From Candidatus Aminicenantota bacterium (GTDB lineage Bacteria; Acidobacteriota; Aminicenantia; S016-38): DNA of 64,000 bases. Under the pieces are notes generated by a model. The model saw nothing but the letters and a program-made list of their open reading frames with translations, did no database searches and had not been told where the DNA came from. Shown piece by piece: positions 2,691 through 41,489 of the stretch (position 1 is the stretch's first letter; the number at the start of each line of letters is the position of its first letter). Position numbers and translations under genes: made by a program. Location of the stretch: the NCBI GenBank assembly GCA_027068075.1, contig JAMOUJ010000005.1, positions 124,001 through 188,000 on the forward strand, in the 5' to 3' direction.

Positions 2691-5591
2691 TTAGAACTCG
2701 AACCTGGCGCCGAAGCGGAGCAACCTGGGGTTGGTCACCTGGAGGTCCTTCCCAAAGTTGGGAGAGGCCTCGTTGGCGTCCTTTCCAAGGGAAATGGCGT
2801 TGTTGGTGGCGTTGAACAGGTCCACGGTGAGATAGACATTTCCCCTTTCGCTTATCTGGATCTTCTTCTCAAGCCTGAAGTTGAGCATCCAGAAGGTGGG
2901 CAGATGCTCGGAACCGTACTTCTTGGTCAGGACGCTGGGGAATCCCCACCAATCGTACTGCTTCTCTGCGGTGTAATCGGTTTTGTGAACCGGGAAGATG
3001 TATCCTTCCCTGGCGATGAGAACCCCGGAGATGTTGAAGTCATAGGGAAGTTGATACAGGAATCCGAACTTGGCCATCCAGCGAGCAAACATATGAACAT
3101 TGGTGGCTCCAGAACCCCTGGAAACCGGAGCATAAACGGTGTTGTTAACCATGTCTTCGGGTTCGTGGTTGGTGGGGTCTATGTAGGCCTTCCTGGAGAG
3201 ATAATGCCTCTTGGAATCCTGGAAGGTCACAGAGCCGTTCAGCATCCACTTGTTGGAAAGCCGCTTGTTGAACACGAGTTCAAGGGCTTTATAGTCCACA
3301 TAGAAATCAGGATGCTTGGTGGTGTAGTCGGGGAGAATAATCAGCCCGTTGTTCCACCAGAAAGGAAGAAGCCAGGGCTGAGTATCCCACCAGATATGGC
3401 CGTCAATCTCACCGGCCTGATACCAATAGGACTCCTCAGTGGGACGAACCAGGGTATCGGTGGAAGTATCCCACATCCAGGGAACATTCCAGTTGAGGTC
3501 AAAGTACCTTCTGTAAATGAAGTTGGCTCCCACTCCGAAGTTGGGAACTATCTCCTTCTCCAACCCAACGAGGACCTCAAGGGTTTTGGGCGGAGAAAGG
3601 TTTTTGTCAAAGAGCAGGTCTATGTCGGGATCAAGCATGAAACTTATCACATACCTGGGAACGAGTTCGTTGGGTTCAGGAACGGCGTCGCCGTCGTCAA
3701 ACCAGTAGAACCTGGCTATAGCGTAGGGAACGCTCATCTTATCACCGTAACCCGCGGGGATAGTCTCTCCGTAAAGGCTAACATTGAGTTTCAGCAGGGT
3801 TTTCCCGTCGCCGGTAATATCGTAGGTAAGTCCCAGCCTGGGAGAGAAAACATTCCACTTGAAGGGAACCTCTCTGGCGAGGGTCTTAACGGGTGCCCAG
3901 TTATAGTCCTTCCCTCCGATGTTCCGGAAGAGGTTGTGATTGGTTCCCTGAACATCCTTGGAGAGAGAACCGGCCTTCATTATGTCGTAGCGGGCTCCCA
4001 GGTTCAGGGTAACCCTCCCCAGATTGACGGTATCCTGGAGGAAGAATCCCAGCCTTCTGGAATAATACTTGGTGTCCCACCCACGATACAGGCGAACTTC
4101 GTAAGGGTGGCCGTTGGCCAGCCTCGCCTGAGCACCGGGCTGATACATGGAATCGGTCATGGCGTATTTGTAGTCAACGCCCACCTTGAATTCGTGGGTC
4201 GCTCCCAGGAAATTCTCGGCGAAATAATCCACGAGGAAGGTTCCATGATACTGGGGCCTATCGGTCCAGTAATAGTAGTTGGAACCCCATCTCACATTGG
4301 TCACCACATCCCAGAAGGTTATGGTGTCGCCTTCGGTGGACTTTCCGCCGTAGGGCATAAGTTCAAAGGCTCCGGCCACATGGCCGAGTTTAAGAGAAAC
4401 GAAGAGGTCGTTTCCGATGGTGAATTCGTCCTGAATCTTATAAACATTGGTAGGTCCGGTCTGATGGAAGGTAGCCTCGTGGGCATCCAGATATCCGCCC
4501 GTCCTGGACCTTCCTTCCTTTTCCTTGTTGGCCCAGGTATAGGCAAATTCAAGCCTGTGATTTCCCACCTGAGCGTTCAATTTGGCGTTGATGTTTTCCA
4601 GCCAGGTGTCATCCCTGGCACCTACGAAGTTATACTTGTCAATGTCCTGAACTCCGTAGGATCCCCAGAACCAGAGCCTATCCTTGATGAGCGGACCTCC
4701 CAGATTGAAACCGTAATCGGTTATGGATTTAATCTTATTTCCCAGGGGAATTTTCTTTCCCATGGGAGTAGAAACGGTGGCGAAATCTCCTCTGTCAGCG
4801 GAAAGTTTGGCCTGATATTTTTCTCCGGTCCAGTAAACCCTGGCCCCTCCGGAGACCCTGTTTCCACCACGCCGGGTCACGAAGTTAATCTGGATTCCAC
4901 CGGTAACTGCCGTTATGTCGTTGGCAGCGGTCTGAATCTGAATTTCTTCAAAGGCATCGTAGTCGTAATACATGGGAGAAGCACCCTGGGCCGCCTCGTC
5001 TGTGATGTTGGTTCCGTCAATACTCCACTGGGCAGTCCTCTGACCGGCTCCTCTTCCTGCAAAGGTGGACTGCTGACCGGATTCGGAACCTCCCACATTC
5101 ACCCTGTCCACCATCACGCCGGGGGCCAACTGCAGTATAACCCAGGGATCCCTGGCGGTGGGAAGTTCCTGGAGGGTTTCCCTGGTGACATTGGCTGCCA
5201 CGGTTGCTTTCCTGGTGTCCACCACGGGAGCAGCAGCGGTGACGGTGATTTCCTCTTTGATGGCGCCTTCCTGCATCTTCAACACGATGCTCACATCGCT
5301 TCCAACCACTACCCTGATGCCCTTCCTCACCACGGTCTTAAAGCCCTGGAGTTCCGCCTTGATGGTGTAGGTTCCAGGGGGAAGGGACAGGAACCTGAAG
5401 TTACCCTCCGCCGATGTGACGGTGGTCATGGGAGCAATCTTATCTCCCGTCAGGGTAACTGCTACCCCGGGAAGGGGCTGTCCGCTGGAGGCATCCACCA
5501 CCTTCCCGTAGATGTTTCCGGTCCTCACCTGACCCATGACCGGAATGGCCACGAGAGCCAGAAGTGCGACCAGAACGAGAAATTTTCGCAT
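2691..5591 (-). CDS. Oar-like TonB-dependent receptor
   Basis: Complete 966-residue outer-membrane receptor of the same class as its downstream neighbour. The ATG at 5591 (MRKFLVLVALL) has AGGAGGT upstream; the open frame extends 202 codons further, but those lie over the shared leader and the divergent hyp operon and are not coding. Domains: signal peptide 1-20, CarboxypepD_reg about 22-110, plug about 125-230, then a barrel ending in GARFEF, with the terminal Phe expected for BamA recognition. The position matching the EF-hand loop of the first receptor reads DDGDAVPEPNE, a degenerate version. After codon 128 the two proteins diverge clearly, so substrates may differ. An intrinsic terminator follows the stop. 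Confidence 0.95.
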   Translation of the reverse strand: MRKFLVLVALLALVAIPVMGQVRTGNIYGKVVDASSGQPLPGVAVTLTGDKIAPMTTVTSAEGNFRFLSLPPGTYTIKAELQGFKTVVRKGIRVVVGSDVSIVLKMQEGAIKEEITVTAAAPVVDTRKATVAANVTRETLQELPTARDPWVILQLAPGVMVDRVNVGGSESGQQSTFAGRGAGQRTAQWSIDGTNITDEAAQGASPMYYDYDAFEEIQIQTAANDITAVTGGIQINFVTRRGGNRVSGGARVYWTGEKYQAKLSADRGDFATVSTPMGKKIPLGNKIKSITDYGFNLGGPLIKDRLWFWGSYGVQDIDKYNFVGARDDTWLENINAKLNAQVGNHRLEFAYTWANKEKEGRSRTGGYLDAHEATFHQTGPTNVYKIQDEFTIGNDLFVSLKLGHVAGAFELMPYGGKSTEGDTITFWDVVTNVRWGSNYYYWTDRPQYHGTFLVDYFAENFLGATHEFKVGVDYKYAMTDSMYQPGAQARLANGHPYEVRLYRGWDTKYYSRRLGFFLQDTVNLGRVTLNLGARYDIMKAGSLSKDVQGTNHNLFRNIGGKDYNWAPVKTLAREVPFKWNVFSPRLGLTYDITGDGKTLLKLNVSLYGETIPAGYGDKMSVPYAIARFYWFDDGDAVPEPNELVPRYVISFMLDPDIDLLFDKNLSPPKTLEVLVGLEKEIVPNFGVGANFIYRRYFDLNWNVPWMWDTSTDTLVRPTEESYWYQAGEIDGHIWWDTQPWLLPFWWNNGLIILPDYTTKHPDFYVDYKALELVFNKRLSNKWMLNGSVTFQDSKRHYLSRKAYIDPTNHEPEDMVNNTVYAPVSRGSGATNVHMFARWMAKFGFLYQLPYDFNISGVLIAREGYIFPVHKTDYTAEKQYDWWGFPSVLTKKYGSEHLPTFWMLNFRLEKKIQISERGNVYLTVDLFNATNNAISLGKDANEASPNFGKDLQVTNPRLLRFGARFEF

Positions 5592-5685
5592 GCATACACC
5601 TCCTTGAAGGTTTTTCACGCTTTTACATGCAAATTCCGTGCCAGAAACCCTGCCCGTTTTCCCGCTTATAGAGCGGAGCAATCCC
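5206..5685. repeat. 480 bp direct repeat, copy 2 (receptor head and leader)
   Basis: Second copy of the repeat at 1961-2440, offset by exactly 3245 bp and in the same orientation. It covers the first 128 codons and the 94 bp leader of the upstream receptor gene. The first mismatch beyond it is at 5686 (G against A at 2441), after which similarity fades over about 40 bp. Confidence 0.93.
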
Positions 5686-5741
5686 GACCCACACCTCACA
5701 AATTCAAGAATTTGAATCAACGGTTTGAACGCCTTTGCTGG

Positions 5742-5753
5742 TAAAATAAAGAC
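5742..5753 (+). promoter_or_regulatory. -10 box for leaderless hypF start
   Basis: TAAAAT at 5742-5747 followed by exactly 6 nt and then ATG at 5754. No Shine-Dalgarno motif precedes the start. The spacing places transcription start on or next to the initiation codon, as in leaderless genes. No good -35 is visible. Confidence 0.6.
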
Positions 5754-6839
5754 ATGAAGTCCCTTTCCCTGGAAATTCCCTGGAACATAAAATCCACCCT
5801 GGCCCTGGGGGCGGACATGAAGAGGAGTTTTGCCCTGGGGGAAAACAGACAAATAACCCTTTTCTACTCCCGAAAACCCCTTTCCACGGTGGAGGAAGCC
5901 CTGGACTTCAAGGAGGAGGTCCTGGGAGAAATTAAGCGGAGGGGGTTTCAACCCCGGGTGGTGGTGGGGGACCTCCATCCCCGCTACCTTTCCACCAGAA
6001 CGGCCAGGGAACTCCATCCTGACCCCGTGCTGGTTCAGCACCATCGGGCCCATATAGCCTCTGCCCTGGCGGAGCACGGCATAACCGAGGAGGTCATCGG
6101 GATTTCCATGGACGGAACGGGATACGGCGAGGACGGAGGTGTGTGGGGAGGGGAATTCTTCGTGGGTGAGGTGGAAGAACTGACCAGGGTCGGCCACATA
6201 GAATACTTCCCCCTTCAGGGAGGGGATTCCGCCGCCCGGGAAACCTGGCGCCCGGCCCTGGCCCTGATAGACCTAATATCCCCGGAAAGGGCCGAGAAGA
6301 TGGCCGCCGAAATCGGTCCCCGGGCGAAGGTGGTCCTTGCCGCCCTGAGAAAGGGCCTGGGGGTGGTCCCCACCTCCAGTGCCGGCAGGCTCTTTGACGC
6401 CGCCGCCTTCCTGATCCTGGGTATAAGGGAAAATTCCTACGAGGCCGAAGCCCCCATGGCCCTGGAAAAAGCCGGATCCTCCTGCCCCTCCGCTCCGCCC
6501 TACAGGTTCGCCCTCAGGGAGGATGGGGAAAAACTCCTCCTGGATCCCCTGCCGGCCTTTGAGGAGATTTTAACCCGGAAGGAATCCCCGGAGAGGATGG
6601 CCCTTTCCTTTCACCGAGGCCTGGCCCGGGGAATAGCGGAGGTGGCCTTTAAATTGAGGGAACGGACAGGGATAAAAAAACTGGTCTTCAGCGGAGGGGT
6701 GTTTCAGAACAACCTTCTGACGGGACTTCTAAAGGAAGAGGCAAAAAACGCCGGATTTGAGCCCGTTTTTCACCGGAGGGTTCCGGCCCACGACGGCGGA
6801 ATAGCCCTGGGCCAGGCAGTTCTGGGAGGTCTCGGTTGA
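5754..6839 (+). CDS. hypF: HypF carbamoyltransferase, Kae1-like half only
   Basis: 361 residues matching only the C-terminal Kae1-like domain of HypF, which moves the carbamoyl group from carbamoyl-adenylate to the HypE C-terminal cysteine during synthesis of the [NiFe]-hydrogenase CN ligands. Visible motifs: HHRAHIASA metal site, DGTGYGEDGGVWGGEF, SSAGRLFDAAA and SGGVFQN. Full-length HypF is about 750 residues and begins with acylphosphatase, zinc-finger and YrdC-like domains; all are missing here, and there is no room for them because the divergent receptor leader starts 160 bp upstream. First gene of the hyp operon, with a leaderless-type start; its stop overlaps the TTG start of hypD. The missing half must be encoded elsewhere or replaced by a separate YrdC/TsaC-type protein. 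Confidence 0.87.
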   Translation: MKSLSLEIPWNIKSTLALGADMKRSFALGENRQITLFYSRKPLSTVEEALDFKEEVLGEIKRRGFQPRVVVGDLHPRYLSTRTARELHPDPVLVQHHRAHIASALAEHGITEEVIGISMDGTGYGEDGGVWGGEFFVGEVEELTRVGHIEYFPLQGGDSAARETWRPALALIDLISPERAEKMAAEIGPRAKVVLAALRKGLGVVPTSSAGRLFDAAAFLILGIRENSYEAEAPMALEKAGSSCPSAPPYRFALREDGEKLLLDPLPAFEEILTRKESPERMALSFHRGLARGIAEVAFKLRERTGIKKLVFSGGVFQNNLLTGLLKEEAKNAGFEPVFHRRVPAHDGGIALGQAVLGGLG

Positions 6840-31040: not shown

Positions 31041-31300
31041 ATGACCCTCGGCACGGCGAAATGGCCCTCTTTGATTCTGGGGGCAAGGGCCAGAAGTTTA
31101 TCCCTTTCGGGAAATTCCTCCGGCACATCCCTCCTGAGTTTGAGGGAAAGCCCCGGAGGGTAAAAGGCGTATTCCTGGGGCTGGGAAAGTTCCTGAAGTT
31201 TGTTTACCCAGGAGAAAATCCTCTCCAGTTGGGGCAGAAACTTCCTCTCCTCCTCCAGTTTAACCAGTTGAAATATGTCCCTGGCCGGTGACTCACTCAT
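31037..31300 (-). CDS. gatC: Amidotransferase subunit C
   Basis: 87 residues, the small chaperone-like subunit that wraps GatA and GatB. VKLEEERKFLPQLERIFSWVNKLQEL followed by LRRDVPEEF matches the family. Overlaps the DUF4388 gene by 8 nt upstream and gatA by 4 nt downstream. Confidence 0.92.
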   Translation of the reverse strand: MSESPARDIFQLVKLEEERKFLPQLERIFSWVNKLQELSQPQEYAFYPPGLSLKLRRDVPEEFPERDKLLALAPRIKEGHFAVPRVI

Positions 31301-31841
31301 TTTCCAGGGTTATCAAACCTGCGGTGATAAGTTCGTATAGGATTTTTCCCACTTCAAAGACAGGAAGCCGAACTTCCTTGGCTATTTCCTTGATGTTTCT
31401 CTTGCCGTCTATTTTGGAAATAACCAGCCACATGGCCGGGGTCAGGGTTATTTTCCTTTTGTCCGTGAGGTCAAAAGTAACGAATTTTGGAACTGCCTGA
31501 ACAGATTTTATCTTCCTTTGCAGGACCTTCCACTCGTCCAACCTTCTGGCGGCCTCCATCATAAGGGAGGCGTTGGATTTCTTTATGGTTCTTTTGGGAG
31601 CCGGCACATTGGGCTCAAAGACGAATTCCCCGTGGGACCAGGGGGCTATTTTGTAAACGGCGAATTCCCCTTCTATGTTCCCCACCTCGGCGTGGACTAT
31701 TTGTCCGCCCTCAAGATAAACATAACCTATTTCATCCTCGTCTTGGTTTTTCAAAACGAACCTCCCGGTCTTGCCTTGCATGCTCATCACCTGGACAAGG
31801 TCGGGAAGTTGAAGGTCCTGGAGAGAGCCTCTCATGGCCAT
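31293..31841 (-). CDS. DUF4388 domain protein
   Basis: 182 residues. N-terminal DUF4388 (PATAN-like) domain: GSLQDLQLPDLVQVMSMQGKTG, GYVYLEGGQIVHAEVG and GEFAVYKIAPWSHGEFVF. The C-terminal 80 residues look like a small winged-helix module (WLVISKIDGKRNIKEIAKEV). Such proteins are common in Acidobacteriota, Myxococcota and relatives in regulatory settings; role here unknown. AAGGAGGT ribosome site; a -10-like TAAAAT lies at 31866-31871. Confidence 0.85.
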   Translation of the reverse strand: MAMRGSLQDLQLPDLVQVMSMQGKTGRFVLKNQDEDEIGYVYLEGGQIVHAEVGNIEGEFAVYKIAPWSHGEFVFEPNVPAPKRTIKKSNASLMMEAARRLDEWKVLQRKIKSVQAVPKFVTFDLTDKRKITLTPAMWLVISKIDGKRNIKEIAKEVRLPVFEVGKILYELITAGLITLENE

Positions 31842-36207: not shown

Positions 36208-39201
36208 ATGAAAAAAGTTCTGCTGGTGGATTACGACGAGAACCATTTGCGGGAGTTGAAGAGGATTCTGGAGGGTTTTGAGGCGATAATTGAAGAAACC
36301 CACAACGGAAAAGAAGGCCTGGAAAAAATAAAAGGAGGAAATTACGCCCTTATAATTGCCTCCACCATAATCCCGGGTCTCAACGGCTTTGAACTCACGA
36401 GAAAACTCAGAATAGAACTTGGCAAAACCAGGCTTCCTGTGATCCTGGTTTCCTCCGTCTACAAAGGCCCCAGGTATAAATACGAAGCCCTCCATGTTTA
36501 CGGAGCCGACCATTTTTTTGAATTTCCCCTGAACGACAAGGAGTTTATCGGGGTGTTGAAAAAATACCTCCCGGAGAAGGCCCCCACCACCACCATGAAG
36601 ATGGAGACTTTGTACGCAAAACCCTTTGAAGGATCGGAGGAAGAACCCGAGGTGCTCATCACCACCGACGAACTTTTCGGCGACATTCTTCAGGAGGTGG
36701 AAAAGGGGATAGTGCAGGAGAGGACGAAAGAAAAGAGAAAAGAGGAGAAAACGGAGGAAAAAGAGGTTAGGGAGGAAGTGGCAGAGAAGGTAAAGGAAGA
36801 TAAGGACCTGAAGCCTATAGAAGAGGAGGTGGAAGAAGTTGAGGAGATGGAGGAACTGGAGGAAATCAGGGAAGAGCCTCCCGGGAAGGAAGAATCCGGC
36901 CCGGAGTTTACCCCCGAGGACATCCTAAAGGAAATCCTGGAACCGACCAGGGAAGAAAAGAAAAAATCCGAATCCAGGGGCGATGATCTCATAGAGAAAA
37001 TCTTGGAGGAAACCCTTTCCGGCCTGGGCAAGAAGCAGAAAAAAACCCAGGAGACCCCGGAGGAAGAGATCCCTGAGGTCCAATTCGCCGCCGCCGAGGA
37101 AGAAAAGGAGGAGAAACCCGAAGAGGAAAAGGTCGGTGAAGCCCCGCCGGAGGAACCAAAAGTTGAAGTCAAAGAAGAGGAAGTACCGGAAGGCCCGGAG
37201 GAGATCCCCGAGGAGGAACCCTTCGGCCCCCTGGAGGAACCCTATGTCCTGGGCGAATACATCCTCCTTGAGAAAATAAGCACCGGAGGCATGGCGGAGG
37301 TATACAAGGCCAAGAAAAAGGGGGTCAAGGGATTTGAGAAAATCGTGGCCCTCAAAAAAATCCTTCCCCACCTGGCCGAGGACGAGGAATTTATTGAAAT
37401 GTTCATTGACGAGGCCAAGGTTGCATCCAAACTGAACCATCCCAACATAGCCCAGATATACGACCTGGGAAAAATCAACAGTTCCTACTTCATAGCCATG
37501 GAATACGTCCTGGGGAAGGACCTGAAGAGCATACTTCGCAAAATCAAGAAGGAGAAAAAACCCCTTCCCCCCATAGAAATTTCCTCCTACATCGTGATGA
37601 AAATAGCCGAGGCCCTGGATTACGCCCACAGGAAGGTGGACGAAAACGGCAGGCCGCTGAACATCGTTCACAGGGATGTGAGCCCTCAGAACATCCTCAT
37701 TTCCTACGAAGGAGAGGTGAAACTGGTGGACTTCGGAGTGGCCAAGGCCTCCATCAAAGCCCACCAGACCATCGCCGGCTCCCTGAAGGGAAAACTCCTC
37801 TACATGTCCCCGGAACAAGCCCGGGGAGAGAACATAGACGGAAGATCGGACATCTTCTCCCTGGGGGCGGTTTTTTACGAACTGGTCACCGGAGAAAAGG
37901 CCTTCATGGCTCACTCAGAGGCCGAGGTTCTGGAGAAGGTAAAAAAAGGGAGTTTCAAGCCCCCCAGGTCCATCCGGCCTGAGATACCGGTGGAAGTGGA
38001 GCGAATTATAATAAAGGCCATGGAGCCCAACCCTGATCAAAGGTATCAGAGGGCTTCGGAGATGAGGAACGACATAGAGAAATTCCTCCTCTCCTACAAG
38101 GGCTACATACCCAGCGCCAGGGATGTGGCGGAATTCATGTACGAACTTTTCGGAGACGAGATTAAAAAGGCAGGAATAGATGTTCAGATCCTCAAGTCCC
38201 CCCTAAGAAAAACCCAGCGCGAGAAAACGGTGGAAGTGGAGAGGGAAGGCGAAGAAAAGGGAGTAAAGGCGCCCAGTTTCGGCCTCCAGGGAACCGAGGA
38301 GGGAAGAAGGAGAAGCCGAATTCTCCCCATTATCTTATTGGGGCTGCTGGCCCTTCTGATTGCCGGGGGGATTTTCTTCATGATGAAGCACAGGGCCAAA
38401 CCGCTTAACCCTTCTCCCCCCGCCGGCCAGGAGACCGCACAGCCCCTGCCCCCTGCCCCGGTGGCCGGCCAGGAAAAACCGGCGGAAACGCCCTCCCCCG
38501 AAGCCGGTCAGGTTTCAGAACCGGCTAAACCTCAGCAGACCTCCACTCCCACTTCGCCCCCTGCCCAACCGGCGGTTTCCGTTCAAAAAAAACAGACGAA
38601 GAAGCCCCCTTCCCCTAAACCATCCCCTGCAAAAACACAGAAATCCCCTGCGGCTAAGCCCCAGGCCCAGCCGAAGCCGGCTCCGAAATCCCCTAAAACC
38701 TCCTCCCAGGTTAAGGTCCCGAAGCCATCTACCACCTCATCTCCCCAGGAGGTAAAGACTTCGCCAAAACCTCAAACACCCCCTCCCACTAAACCCCAGA
38801 GCCAGACTCCACCTCCCCAGAAAGAAAAGGAGCAAAAAAACCAGCCGAAGCCGAAACCTGCCGAAACCGCTGCGAAACCAGTTCCTCAGGCCACACCCAA
38901 AACCCCCGCCCCAAAGATAAAGGAAGGCGATGTGGTTCCCTACTCCCTTCTGGACTCCAGGCCAAGGCCCAAGAAGGTGGTCTCTCCAATTCGCCCCAGG
39001 GTTCCCAATCTCTCCGGGGCGGTCTTTCTGAGCGTCCTGGTGGGTCCGGACGGGAAGGTGGAAAAGGTTAAGGTAATAAGAGGCATACATGCAATATACG
39101 ACGAAGCCGCCGTTAAGGCGGTCCAGAAGTGGAGATTCACTCCGCCCGTAAAAGAAGGGAAAAAGGTCCGCACATGGACCACCGTAAGAATAAAATTTTA
39201 A
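36208..39201 (+). CDS. Pseudo-receiver / Ser-Thr kinase / TM / TonB fusion protein
   Basis: 997 residues. Residues 1-120 are a receiver-like domain (KKVLLVDYDENHLRELKRIL) whose phosphoacceptor Asp is Ser in IIASTIIPG and whose usual Lys is lost (FEFPL), so a pseudo-receiver. Residues about 125-340 are a Glu/Lys-rich low-complexity linker. Residues about 348-640 are a full protein kinase: STGGMAEVYKA loop, Lys in IVALKKI, HRDVSPQNIL (about 488), DFG (about 508), MSPEQARG. One membrane span near 705-728 (LPIILLGLLALLIAGGIFF), then a Pro/Lys/Gln-rich linker of about 190 residues and a TonB C-terminal domain (930-997: GAVFLSVLVGPDGKVEKV, AVKAVQKWRFTP). Topology puts the kinase in the cytoplasm and TonB in the periplasm. 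ATG 36208 with GGGGAGGG. Followed 14 nt later by a small coiled-coil gene. Confidence 0.93.
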   Translation: MKKVLLVDYDENHLRELKRILEGFEAIIEETHNGKEGLEKIKGGNYALIIASTIIPGLNGFELTRKLRIELGKTRLPVILVSSVYKGPRYKYEALHVYGADHFFEFPLNDKEFIGVLKKYLPEKAPTTTMKMETLYAKPFEGSEEEPEVLITTDELFGDILQEVEKGIVQERTKEKRKEEKTEEKEVREEVAEKVKEDKDLKPIEEEVEEVEEMEELEEIREEPPGKEESGPEFTPEDILKEILEPTREEKKKSESRGDDLIEKILEETLSGLGKKQKKTQETPEEEIPEVQFAAAEEEKEEKPEEEKVGEAPPEEPKVEVKEEEVPEGPEEIPEEEPFGPLEEPYVLGEYILLEKISTGGMAEVYKAKKKGVKGFEKIVALKKILPHLAEDEEFIEMFIDEAKVASKLNHPNIAQIYDLGKINSSYFIAMEYVLGKDLKSILRKIKKEKKPLPPIEISSYIVMKIAEALDYAHRKVDENGRPLNIVHRDVSPQNILISYEGEVKLVDFGVAKASIKAHQTIAGSLKGKLLYMSPEQARGENIDGRSDIFSLGAVFYELVTGEKAFMAHSEAEVLEKVKKGSFKPPRSIRPEIPVEVERIIIKAMEPNPDQRYQRASEMRNDIEKFLLSYKGYIPSARDVAEFMYELFGDEIKKAGIDVQILKSPLRKTQREKTVEVEREGEEKGVKAPSFGLQGTEEGRRRSRILPIILLGLLALLIAGGIFFMMKHRAKPLNPSPPAGQETAQPLPPAPVAGQEKPAETPSPEAGQVSEPAKPQQTSTPTSPPAQPAVSVQKKQTKKPPSPKPSPAKTQKSPAAKPQAQPKPAPKSPKTSSQVKVPKPSTTSSPQEVKTSPKPQTPPPTKPQSQTPPPQKEKEQKNQPKPKPAETAAKPVPQATPKTPAPKIKEGDVVPYSLLDSRPRPKKVVSPIRPRVPNLSGAVFLSVLVGPDGKVEKVKVIRGIHAIYDEAAVKAVQKWRFTPPVKEGKKVRTWTTVRIKF

Positions 39202-39215
39202 AGGAGAGGTGAACC

Positions 39216-39431
39216 ATGGCATTACCCAAGGAACAGGAATCCTTCTACAAACAAGCCCTTGAAAACGCTAAAAAGGAAATTCAGAGGATTGAGGAAGAGA
39301 TGGAAAAGGAAGTAGCCGCCTTCAAGGCGAAGATGGCCGAACTCCAGAAGCACAAGGAAGCCGTAAGGCAGATTTACGACGGCGCCGCCGCCATTCTCGG
39401 GGTTCCCAACGAATTTGAAGAGGAGGAATAG
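39216..39431 (+). CDS. Small coiled-coil protein
   Basis: 71 residues: a long amphipathic helix (KQALENAKKEIQRIEEEMEK continuing to about residue 52), then DGAAAILGVPNEFEEEE. No signal peptide. AGGAGAGG ribosome site. It begins 14 nt after the kinase-TonB stop and so is almost certainly cotranscribed; it could be a partner or adaptor of the kinase, but I recognise no family. Confidence 0.75.
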   Translation: MALPKEQESFYKQALENAKKEIQRIEEEMEKEVAAFKAKMAELQKHKEAVRQIYDGAAAILGVPNEFEEEE

Positions 39432-39447
39432 TTAAAACAGTTTTATT

Positions 39448-40230
39448 ATGTGGACCAAATGTAATGTTTGCAAAAGAATAGTCTACAAAAAGGATATTGT
39501 AGACAACCTTTATGTTTGCCCCCACTGCGGATTTCACTTCAGGCTTACGGCCCGGAAGAGACTGGAACTTCTCTTTGACGGGGGAAAATACCAGGAACTT
39601 TTTGACAACCTCCTCTCCGAGGACCCCCTGAACTTCGTGGACAGGAAGCCCTATCCCCAGAGGATAGCCGAGAGCATGGAAAAAACCGGGGAGAAGGAGG
39701 CCGTGGTGGTGGCCCGGGGAGAAATGGGTAACATCCCGGTGATAGCGGCGGTTATGGAGTATTACTTCATCGGCGGCTCCATGGGATCGGTGGTGGGGGA
39801 AAAGATAACCCGGGCGGTGGAAACTGCCCTGAAGGAAAAACTCCCCCTGGTAATAGTATCCGCCTCCGGTGGAGCCCGGATGATGGAGGGTATTTATTCC
39901 CTTATGCAAATGGCCAAAATATCCGCTGCCCTCAAGAAATTTCACCGGGCGGGTCTTCCCTACATATCCGTCCTGACGGACCCCACCACCGGAGGGGTCA
40001 CCGCCAGTTACGCCATGCTGGGCGATGTTAACATAGCGGAACCCCAAGCCCTCATAGGGTTCGCCGGCCCCAGGGTCATAGAGCAAACCATAAGGCAGAA
40101 ACTCCCCGAGGGATTCCAGCGATCGGAGTTTCTCCTGGAGCACGGAATGCTGGACATGGTGGTTCACCGCAAGGAACTCAAGGACACCATAGTCCGCATC
40201 CTGCGCCTTTTCCTGAATCAGCCCAGTTGA
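39448..40230 (+). CDS. accD: Acetyl-CoA carboxylase carboxyltransferase subunit beta
   Basis: 260 residues. N-terminal zinc ribbon CNVC/CPHC, then a crotonase-like carboxyltransferase fold with SASGGARMMEG, LTDPTTGGVTASYAMLGD and IGFAGPRVIEQTI. Carries the carboxyl transfer from biotin to acetyl-CoA with AccA, which is not in the window. The ATG at 39448 has no nearby ribosome site (the closest AGGAGG is 20 nt away) and an in-frame stop lies just upstream. Followed by folC with a 4 nt overlap, a common pairing. Confidence 0.96.
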   Translation: MWTKCNVCKRIVYKKDIVDNLYVCPHCGFHFRLTARKRLELLFDGGKYQELFDNLLSEDPLNFVDRKPYPQRIAESMEKTGEKEAVVVARGEMGNIPVIAAVMEYYFIGGSMGSVVGEKITRAVETALKEKLPLVIVSASGGARMMEGIYSLMQMAKISAALKKFHRAGLPYISVLTDPTTGGVTASYAMLGDVNIAEPQALIGFAGPRVIEQTIRQKLPEGFQRSEFLLEHGMLDMVVHRKELKDTIVRILRLFLNQPS

Positions 40231-41489
40231 ACTACCGGGAAGCCCTTTCCTACTTAGAGTATCTTCAGAACTTCCGGATAAAACTGGGCCTGGATAGGAT
40301 AAGGCTTTTGGTAAAGGAACTGGGCTTTCCCAACAGGGAGTTCCTCTATGTAATAATCGCCGGGACCAACGGGAAGGGCTCCGTGGGGGCCTTCCTTTCC
40401 TCGGTCCTCTCCCGCCGCTACAGGGTGGGCTTCAATTCCTCACCCCACCTCATCACTCCCAGGGAGAGGATCAGGATAAACGGAGAGGTCCTGAGCCAGG
40501 AGAAATTTGCCCATTACATAGGAACGGTGGCGGAGGCCTCCGCCAAAATCAACCACCTATTTCCCCATCCCCTGACCTATTTTGAAACCCTCACCGCCGC
40601 CGCCATGTTGGCCTTCAGGGAAGAGGGCGTGGAAATAGGCATATTTGAGGTGGGAATGGGGGGGAGGCTGGATGCCACCAACGCATATCCGGCGGACCTC
40701 AGCGTGATTACCGAAATTGGCCTTGACCACACGGGACACCTGGGAAAGACGGAGGAGGAAATTGCCCGGGAAAAATCCTTCGTCATCCAAAGGGGAGTGA
40801 CCGTAATAGGGACCTCCAGGGAAAACCTCCAGGGGATTTTTCTGGCCAGGGCAAAGGAGGTGGGGGCCAGGGCCAGACTCGTTTTCACCGGCAACAACTT
40901 CCGAAGGACGGCTCCAGGGGAATTTCTGTATTCCGGCAGGGAAACATATCGGCTGAAGCCCGCCTTAGCCGGGCCCCATCAGGGGAAAAATGCCGCCACG
41001 GCGGTGGCCGCCGCCGAGGAGATTTCAAGGCTTGGCTATCCCATCCCCCGGCAGGACATAGAGGAAGGGATAGCCTCGGCCTTCTGGCCGGCAAGGCTGG
41101 AAAGGATTGGAAACATCTATCTGGACGGCATGCATAACTGCCATGCATCCTATCCGGTGAGGGAATTTCTGGAGGAAAACCCTCCGTGGGACACCCTGAT
41201 CTTTGGGCTTCTCAGGGACAAGGACTACCGCTGTATGGGAAGAAATATCTTCCCCCTATTTAAAAACATCGTTCTCACCGAGGCCCCTTCCCGCCGCAGG
41301 ATGCCCGCTCACCAACTGGTGCCCCTGGCCTCCAGGTACGGGAGAATTTTCCTGGAGCGCAACCCGGAGAGGGCCCTGGAAACCGCCCGAAGGGTCAGCC
41401 AGGGGAAAATATTGGTGGCCGGTTCCCTTTACATCGTGGGTAAAATAAGGGAGAAACTGATGGAAGAGGGTTTGGTCACCAGATTATGA
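40227..41489 (+). CDS. folC: Folylpolyglutamate / dihydrofolate synthase
   Basis: 420 residues of the Mur-ligase family. ATP loop IIAGTNGKGSVGAFLSS, folate-binding SSPHLITPRERI, catalytic region GMGGRLDATNA and GLDHTGHLG. Adds glutamate to folates. TTG start overlapping the accD stop (TTGA) and 4 nt overlap with rlmN. Confidence 0.95.
   Translation: MNYREALSYLEYLQNFRIKLGLDRIRLLVKELGFPNREFLYVIIAGTNGKGSVGAFLSSVLSRRYRVGFNSSPHLITPRERIRINGEVLSQEKFAHYIGTVAEASAKINHLFPHPLTYFETLTAAAMLAFREEGVEIGIFEVGMGGRLDATNAYPADLSVITEIGLDHTGHLGKTEEEIAREKSFVIQRGVTVIGTSRENLQGIFLARAKEVGARARLVFTGNNFRRTAPGEFLYSGRETYRLKPALAGPHQGKNAATAVAAAEEISRLGYPIPRQDIEEGIASAFWPARLERIGNIYLDGMHNCHASYPVREFLEENPPWDTLIFGLLRDKDYRCMGRNIFPLFKNIVLTEAPSRRRMPAHQLVPLASRYGRIFLERNPERALETARRVSQGKILVAGSLYIVGKIREKLMEEGLVTRL

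Follow-up and report, generated by a model that had tools for sequence, protein, structure and literature searches.

Several described systems resemble parts of the protein reported here. PASTA receptor kinases (PknB, StkP) combine a cytoplasmic Hanks-type kinase, one membrane span and an extracytoplasmic sensor; TonB, which transduces energy from the inner to the outer membrane, carries its C-terminal fold on a Pro/Lys-rich periplasmic linker. The nearest published analogue is GltG of Myxococcus xanthus, in which a cytosolic FHA domain, one span and a periplasmic TonB-type domain are joined; GltG belongs to the gliding machinery and interacts with the AglR motor (PMC3169522). In addition, some Myxococcota Hanks kinases have a kinase domain that is up to 57% identical to the one described below.

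The window is a stretch of 64,000 nucleotides from a Candidatus Aminicenantota bacterium (phylum Acidobacteriota). At 36208..39201 (+) it encodes a 997-residue protein with a pseudo-receiver, a Ser/Thr kinase, a transmembrane span (TM) and a TonB C-terminal domain (TonB_C). In contrast to the PASTA kinases, it has TonB_C and a Pro-rich tether in place of PASTA, and a pseudo-receiver is added at the N-terminus; the NCBIfam PASTA-kinase model NF033483 scores 289.8 bits against an equivalog cut-off of 450, and no PASTA domain is found with Pfam. Unlike TonB, it has a cytoplasmic part of about 700 residues and a span without His, and its gene does not adjoin exbB/exbD in its own genome. A receiver and a kinase replace the FHA domain of GltG; no FHA domain is found in the protein and no AglRQS/Glt gliding cluster near it, whereas GltG uses the AglRQS motor.

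The Myxococcota kinases differ in that no TonB_C, receiver or sm71 (the small protein encoded downstream of the kinase-TonB gene) is fused or adjacent to them at the loci examined. In the loci fetched from seven sampled Myxococcota, Bdellovibrionota and Deltaproteobacteria genomes, TonB_C proteins are TonB-like proteins or receptors and contain no kinase; an origin of the fusion in the Myxococcota was rejected on this sample. Seven Myxococcota proteins that resemble TonB-dependent receptors (L316, L322, L326, L330, L331, L337 and L338) have a TonB_C-like domain right behind the signal peptide.

No prior description of a kinase-TonB_C fusion was found in the open-access literature, and TonB is not mentioned in open-access surveys of prokaryotic kinase architectures; since the literature covered is open access only, this absence is weak evidence of novelty. 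The kinase, a helical partner and a dead kinase twin make up an apparently undescribed signalling set that is kept across much of the phylum.

Domains of the kinase-TonB protein

A Shine-Dalgarno-like GGGGAGG lies upstream of the ATG at 36208. The receiver domain covers residues 4-114 (36217..36549, +; Pfam Response_reg, PF00072, E 2e-10). The phosphoacceptor Asp, whose absence the initial annotation had noticed, is replaced by Ser52 (36361-36363), and Phe stands in place of the conserved receiver Lys. Of 68 relatives that have a receiver, 65 also lack this Asp and three retain it. The acidic cytoplasmic linker contains two conserved linear motifs: ITTDELFGDI (36658..36687, +), located by pattern search, and IEKILEETLSGL (36991..37026, +). 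Motifs of the first type are found in most kinase-bearing members of the family and are absent from kinase-less ones, except for one weak match (L095); among 85 family members, the short linker motifs LFGD and TLSGL mainly accompany the kinase.

The Hanks-type Ser/Thr kinase domain occupies residues 352-614 (37261..38049, +; Pfam Pkinase, PF00069, E 1e-42, 146.7 bits, cut-off 31.7). It contains VALK, the helix-C Glu, HRD and DFG; the last three are invariant across a 17-sequence phylum alignment, and the catalytic residues are kept throughout the phylum at 52-62% identity. PknB and StkP are the nearest solved kinase domains. Judged by motifs and model score, this is a Hanks-type kinase domain with its catalytic residues intact.

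A single membrane span, located by hydropathy at residues about 705-724 (38320..38379, +), precedes a linker of 198 residues (38389..38982, +) which is presumed to be periplasmic and is rich in Pro (26%), Lys (15%) and Gln (11%). TonB_C itself covers residues 934-997 (39007..39198, +), with the structural domain starting at about 904. It is a true TonB domain that scores above the cut-offs of Pfam PF03544 (57.3 versus 24.6 bits, E 2e-15) and NCBIfam TIGR01352 tonB_Cterm (46.8 versus 27.1 bits). The AlphaFold model of the C-terminus has a pLDDT of 88, and its top Foldseek matches are all TonB C-terminal domains: 6i97_D (FoxA-TonB), 9dc4, 6fip and 2gsk. TonB bound to FoxA, TbpA and BtuB ranks above TolA or HasB. 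An intact kinase joined across one membrane span to a TonB_C of about 70 residues had been proposed initially; Pfam, NCBIfam, the predicted TonB fold and the catalytic motifs all agree with this, and the domain content of the 997-residue protein is firm.

Operon, distribution and modularity

The sm71 gene (39216..39431, +) begins 14 nt 3' of the kinase-TonB gene and encodes a cytoplasmic helical protein of 71 residues. Its model is a single helix (residues 5-61, pLDDT 92.6) which has no structural match; no close Pfam or NCBIfam family is found, and there are weak coiled-coil matches only. Among 396 phylum genomes sampled, 150 contain a match to the sm71 profile. In 51 of 58 phylum loci, the same-strand gene directly upstream of sm71 is a member of the kinase/TonB family or a trimmed version of it. 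The clear exceptions all belong to family f7 (L096, L098, L100, L104, L144 and L145), and L132 is interrupted by a contig end. Within the class, sm71 comes next in each of the 27 orthologues with enough contig sequence beyond the gene. This phylum-wide adjacency strengthens an early suggestion that the small downstream protein is a likely partner of the kinase.

The one contig scan used the kinase alignment, as sm71 sequences vary too much across the phylum. Two apparent kinase-sm71 fusions (L133 and L134) were rejected as GC-rich out-of-frame artefacts; there are two separate genes at these loci. At the six f7 loci, no kinase/TonB_C gene lies directly upstream of sm71, and an Era-like GTPase gene is found near some of them.

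The genes accD and folC (39448..41489, +) come after sm71 in many families; they are probably the tail of the operon and not part of its function. Outside the class, several families have yebC and an exbB-exbD-exbD-tonB-DUF4388 cluster next to the operon, with the module as a separate gene. No exbB-exbD-exbD-tonB clustering is found in the window's own class. A DUF4388 gene at 31293-31841 (-) is the sole remnant of such a cluster near the operon in the window; roughly a dozen further families also have DUF4388 genes close to the operon.

Clear orthologues of the kinase-TonB protein are found in the class families f1, f2, f3 and f5 (whole-protein search, 60 relatives), and the same gene block is present in Holophagae, Thermoanaerobaculia and Candidatus Sulfomarinibacter. 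The architecture recurs across the Acidobacteriota and is not a one-off. Of the 85 family members collected, 53 have the full RR-kinase-TM-TonB_C arrangement (RR, receiver). Seven others are RR-TM-TonB_C proteins without the kinase, five consist of TM-TonB_C only, two are soluble kinases and 12 are kinase-TM proteins without a detected TonB_C, a few of which are cut or have masked bases (L038, L047, L119). All of these forms retain sm71 beside them.

The kinase is lost in f4, f7, f8 and f10; f30, f44, f67 and f73 have an active kinase that has lost its TonB_C, and in f44 the membrane span is absent too. In a tree of receiver and TonB_C sequences, the kinase-less forms nest inside the kinase-bearing ones (support 94 for a group that also holds the kinase-bearing L041); the kinase was therefore lost rather than gained. 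A kinase fusion that arose as a local novelty of the window's own genome was rejected in view of the wide distribution and of this tree. Since sm71 is kept through both kinase loss and TonB_C loss, the module can do without either of the two domains. The kinase-less genome G045 encodes a fusion of a different Hanks kinase to a TM and a TonB_C (L339, 2068-4278, -). The TonB_C of this fusion closely resembles that of the local RR-TM-TonB_C protein, and the fusion is apparently an independent re-joining.

Motor histidine and pseudokinase twin

The initial annotation had found no motor His within the span. This holds for the window protein, in which the nearest His (His728) lies just beyond the span, and for its relatives: a span His is found in none of 82 family members, in none of 27 pseudokinases and in all 11 TonB/TolA controls. 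These controls include the genome's own TonB, whose gene adjoins exbB and exbD, and its TolA-like protein. An SHLS-type span His is essential for the motor interactions of TolA and TonB (PMC12204202). ExbB-type energisation of the kinase-TonB family is therefore unlikely, as judged from the His comparison. The genome encodes exbB/exbD/tonB on contig C9, tolQ/tolR/tolA-like genes on contig C6, and a third MotA/ExbB homologue.

An earlier proposal that the kinase gates TonB function is weakened, because all 82 spans lack the ExbB-binding His that the genome's own TonB and TolA possess, and because the domains are separable: kinase-less and TonB_C-less forms both persist with sm71. Gating of an energised TonB by the kinase was judged unlikely after this comparison.

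The other large TonB_C protein of the genome is encoded on contig C3. It has 622 residues with a kinase fold, one span and TonB_C; HNL replaces HRD and NFG replaces DFG. This pseudokinase family is found phylum-wide. The HRD Asp is missing in 27 of 27 sequences, most of which are marked by the motif YSPTTFNLAFFMHSLFRDE. Most of the kinase-bearing genomes examined encode the twin, whereas none was found in 19 kinase-less ones (f4, f7, f8, f9, f10 and f35); the frame in G045 is the different kinase-TonB_C fusion and not a twin. No clear twin is found in the kinase-bearing G113, G356 and G287, some of which are incomplete, and a twin occurs without a detected active kinase in G007, G027 and G029. 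As the genomes are related, this co-occurrence represents a handful of independent events rather than hundreds. In f30, f44, f67 and f73, where the active kinase has no TonB_C, the pseudokinase of the lineage keeps it; for f44, both genes come from one genome (G115: L152 and L276).

A receiver-pseudokinase with HGN for HRD and without TM or TonB_C is encoded in f3 (L340, 120-1877, +); f3 also has an active kinase-TonB protein. On contig C3, a TPR gene and an FHA-GAF-guanylate cyclase gene adjoin the pseudokinase gene on the same strand (L064, 3756-7917). FHA domains read phosphothreonine; the cyclase is for this reason a possible output, and is a lead rather than a result.

Proposed role and alternatives

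The reading we prefer, with confidence a little short of even, is that the protein forms the active subunit of a receptor-kinase complex in the inner membrane, where the TonB fold serves as a contact sensor or anchor without energisation by ExbB/ExbD. The half made up of the degenerate receiver, the acidic two-motif linker and the Hanks kinase would phosphorylate targets in the cytoplasm. The long flexible periplasmic tether would end in a TonB-fold domain that binds a partner in the outer membrane or cell wall, either as TonB does, by beta-strand addition to a TonB-box-like peptide, or by binding peptidoglycan. Binding or tension may then alter how the kinase clusters, both with other copies of itself and with the catalytically dead twin that also has a TonB domain, and thereby kinase activity; sm71 would serve the cytoplasmic part as its dedicated adaptor or regulator. 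We infer this mechanism, including ligand binding, complex formation, the direction of signalling and the substrates. Conversion of periplasmic or outer-membrane contact into cytoplasmic phosphorylation, as initially suggested, is plausible.

This receptor-kinase reading draws on the domains and their folds, the conserved catalytic residues, the full architecture in 53 of 85 members and the lack of a span His in all 82. It also draws on the adjacency of sm71 (27 class loci, 51 of 58 phylum loci) together with the co-occurring pseudokinase, on the retention of TonB_C by the pseudokinase where the kinase has lost it, on the new fusion in G045, and on the position of the operon beside the exbB-exbD-exbD-tonB-DUF4388 cluster in several families. 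The dispensable kinase and TonB_C, the f44 form without a span and the housekeeping genes downstream are points against it.

The strongest rival, itself unlikely, is that the TonB-fold domain is a mere envelope anchor which positions the kinase; the inputs would be cytoplasmic (pseudo-receiver and sm71) and the periplasmic part free of signal. The persistence of kinase and sm71 without TonB_C in f30, f44, f67 and f73 fits an anchor, as do the strong conservation of the N-terminal motifs and the fact that sm71 is the most constant element. However, TonB_C is kept in most lineages, as a TonB rather than a TolA fold; it is also retained by the pseudokinase where the kinase has lost it, and it has been re-attached to another kinase.

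It is distinctly less probable that the kinase regulates TonB-dependent transport, with TonB_C competing or cross-linking with TonB at the TonB boxes of receptors and phosphorylation acting as the gate. The window contains two tandem CarboxypepD_reg/Plug/beta-barrel receptors, at 1-2475 (-, cut) and 2691-6197 (-); as a correction to the initial annotation, which gave 1-5.6 kb, the two lie on the minus strand at 1-6.2 kb. Both share a near-identical N-terminal stretch with a TonB-box-like EEITVTAAAPVVDTRKA, which suggests a recent duplication or gene conversion; a TonB-box peptide from the genome's own receptors is EEITVTAAAPVVD. The TonB-box-like EEITVTA in the window's receptors would suit transport regulation, and so would the exbB-exbD-exbD-tonB clustering in several families and the presence of TonB bound to FoxA, TbpA and BtuB among the best fold matches. 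Against this, the clustering is absent from the window's own class, the motor His is missing and the genome has its own complete TonB-ExbB-ExbD. Nothing specific supports a proposed link to these Oar-like receptors: the distance is 30 kb, synteny with them is not conserved, and the genome has at least five other Plug proteins. Beyond TonB-box-like sequences, a tie between the receptors and the kinase-TonB protein is not supported.

A GltG-like force transducer (cytosolic FHA, span and TonB-type C-terminus, binding AglR; PMC3169522), energised by an ExbB/TolQ-type motor under control of the kinase, is very improbable: the genome does encode a third MotA/ExbB homologue, but the operon and its class-wide neighbourhood contain no motor genes and no member has the span His that is essential in TolA/TonB (PMC12204202).

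The preferred receptor-kinase reading extends, more tentatively, to a class of receptor kinases with a TonB-fold sensor, in which an active/pseudokinase pair and a helical adaptor would convert outer-membrane contact into Ser/Thr phosphorylation in much of the phylum. Sensing of the PASTA type is not the rule in Gram-negative bacteria; if the proposal is true, the status of the outer membrane or wall could reach cytoplasmic phosphorylation in these organisms. The kinase, the dead kinase and the small helical protein form a system compact enough to be tested, in which naturally occurring forms without the kinase or without TonB_C already dissect the role of each part.
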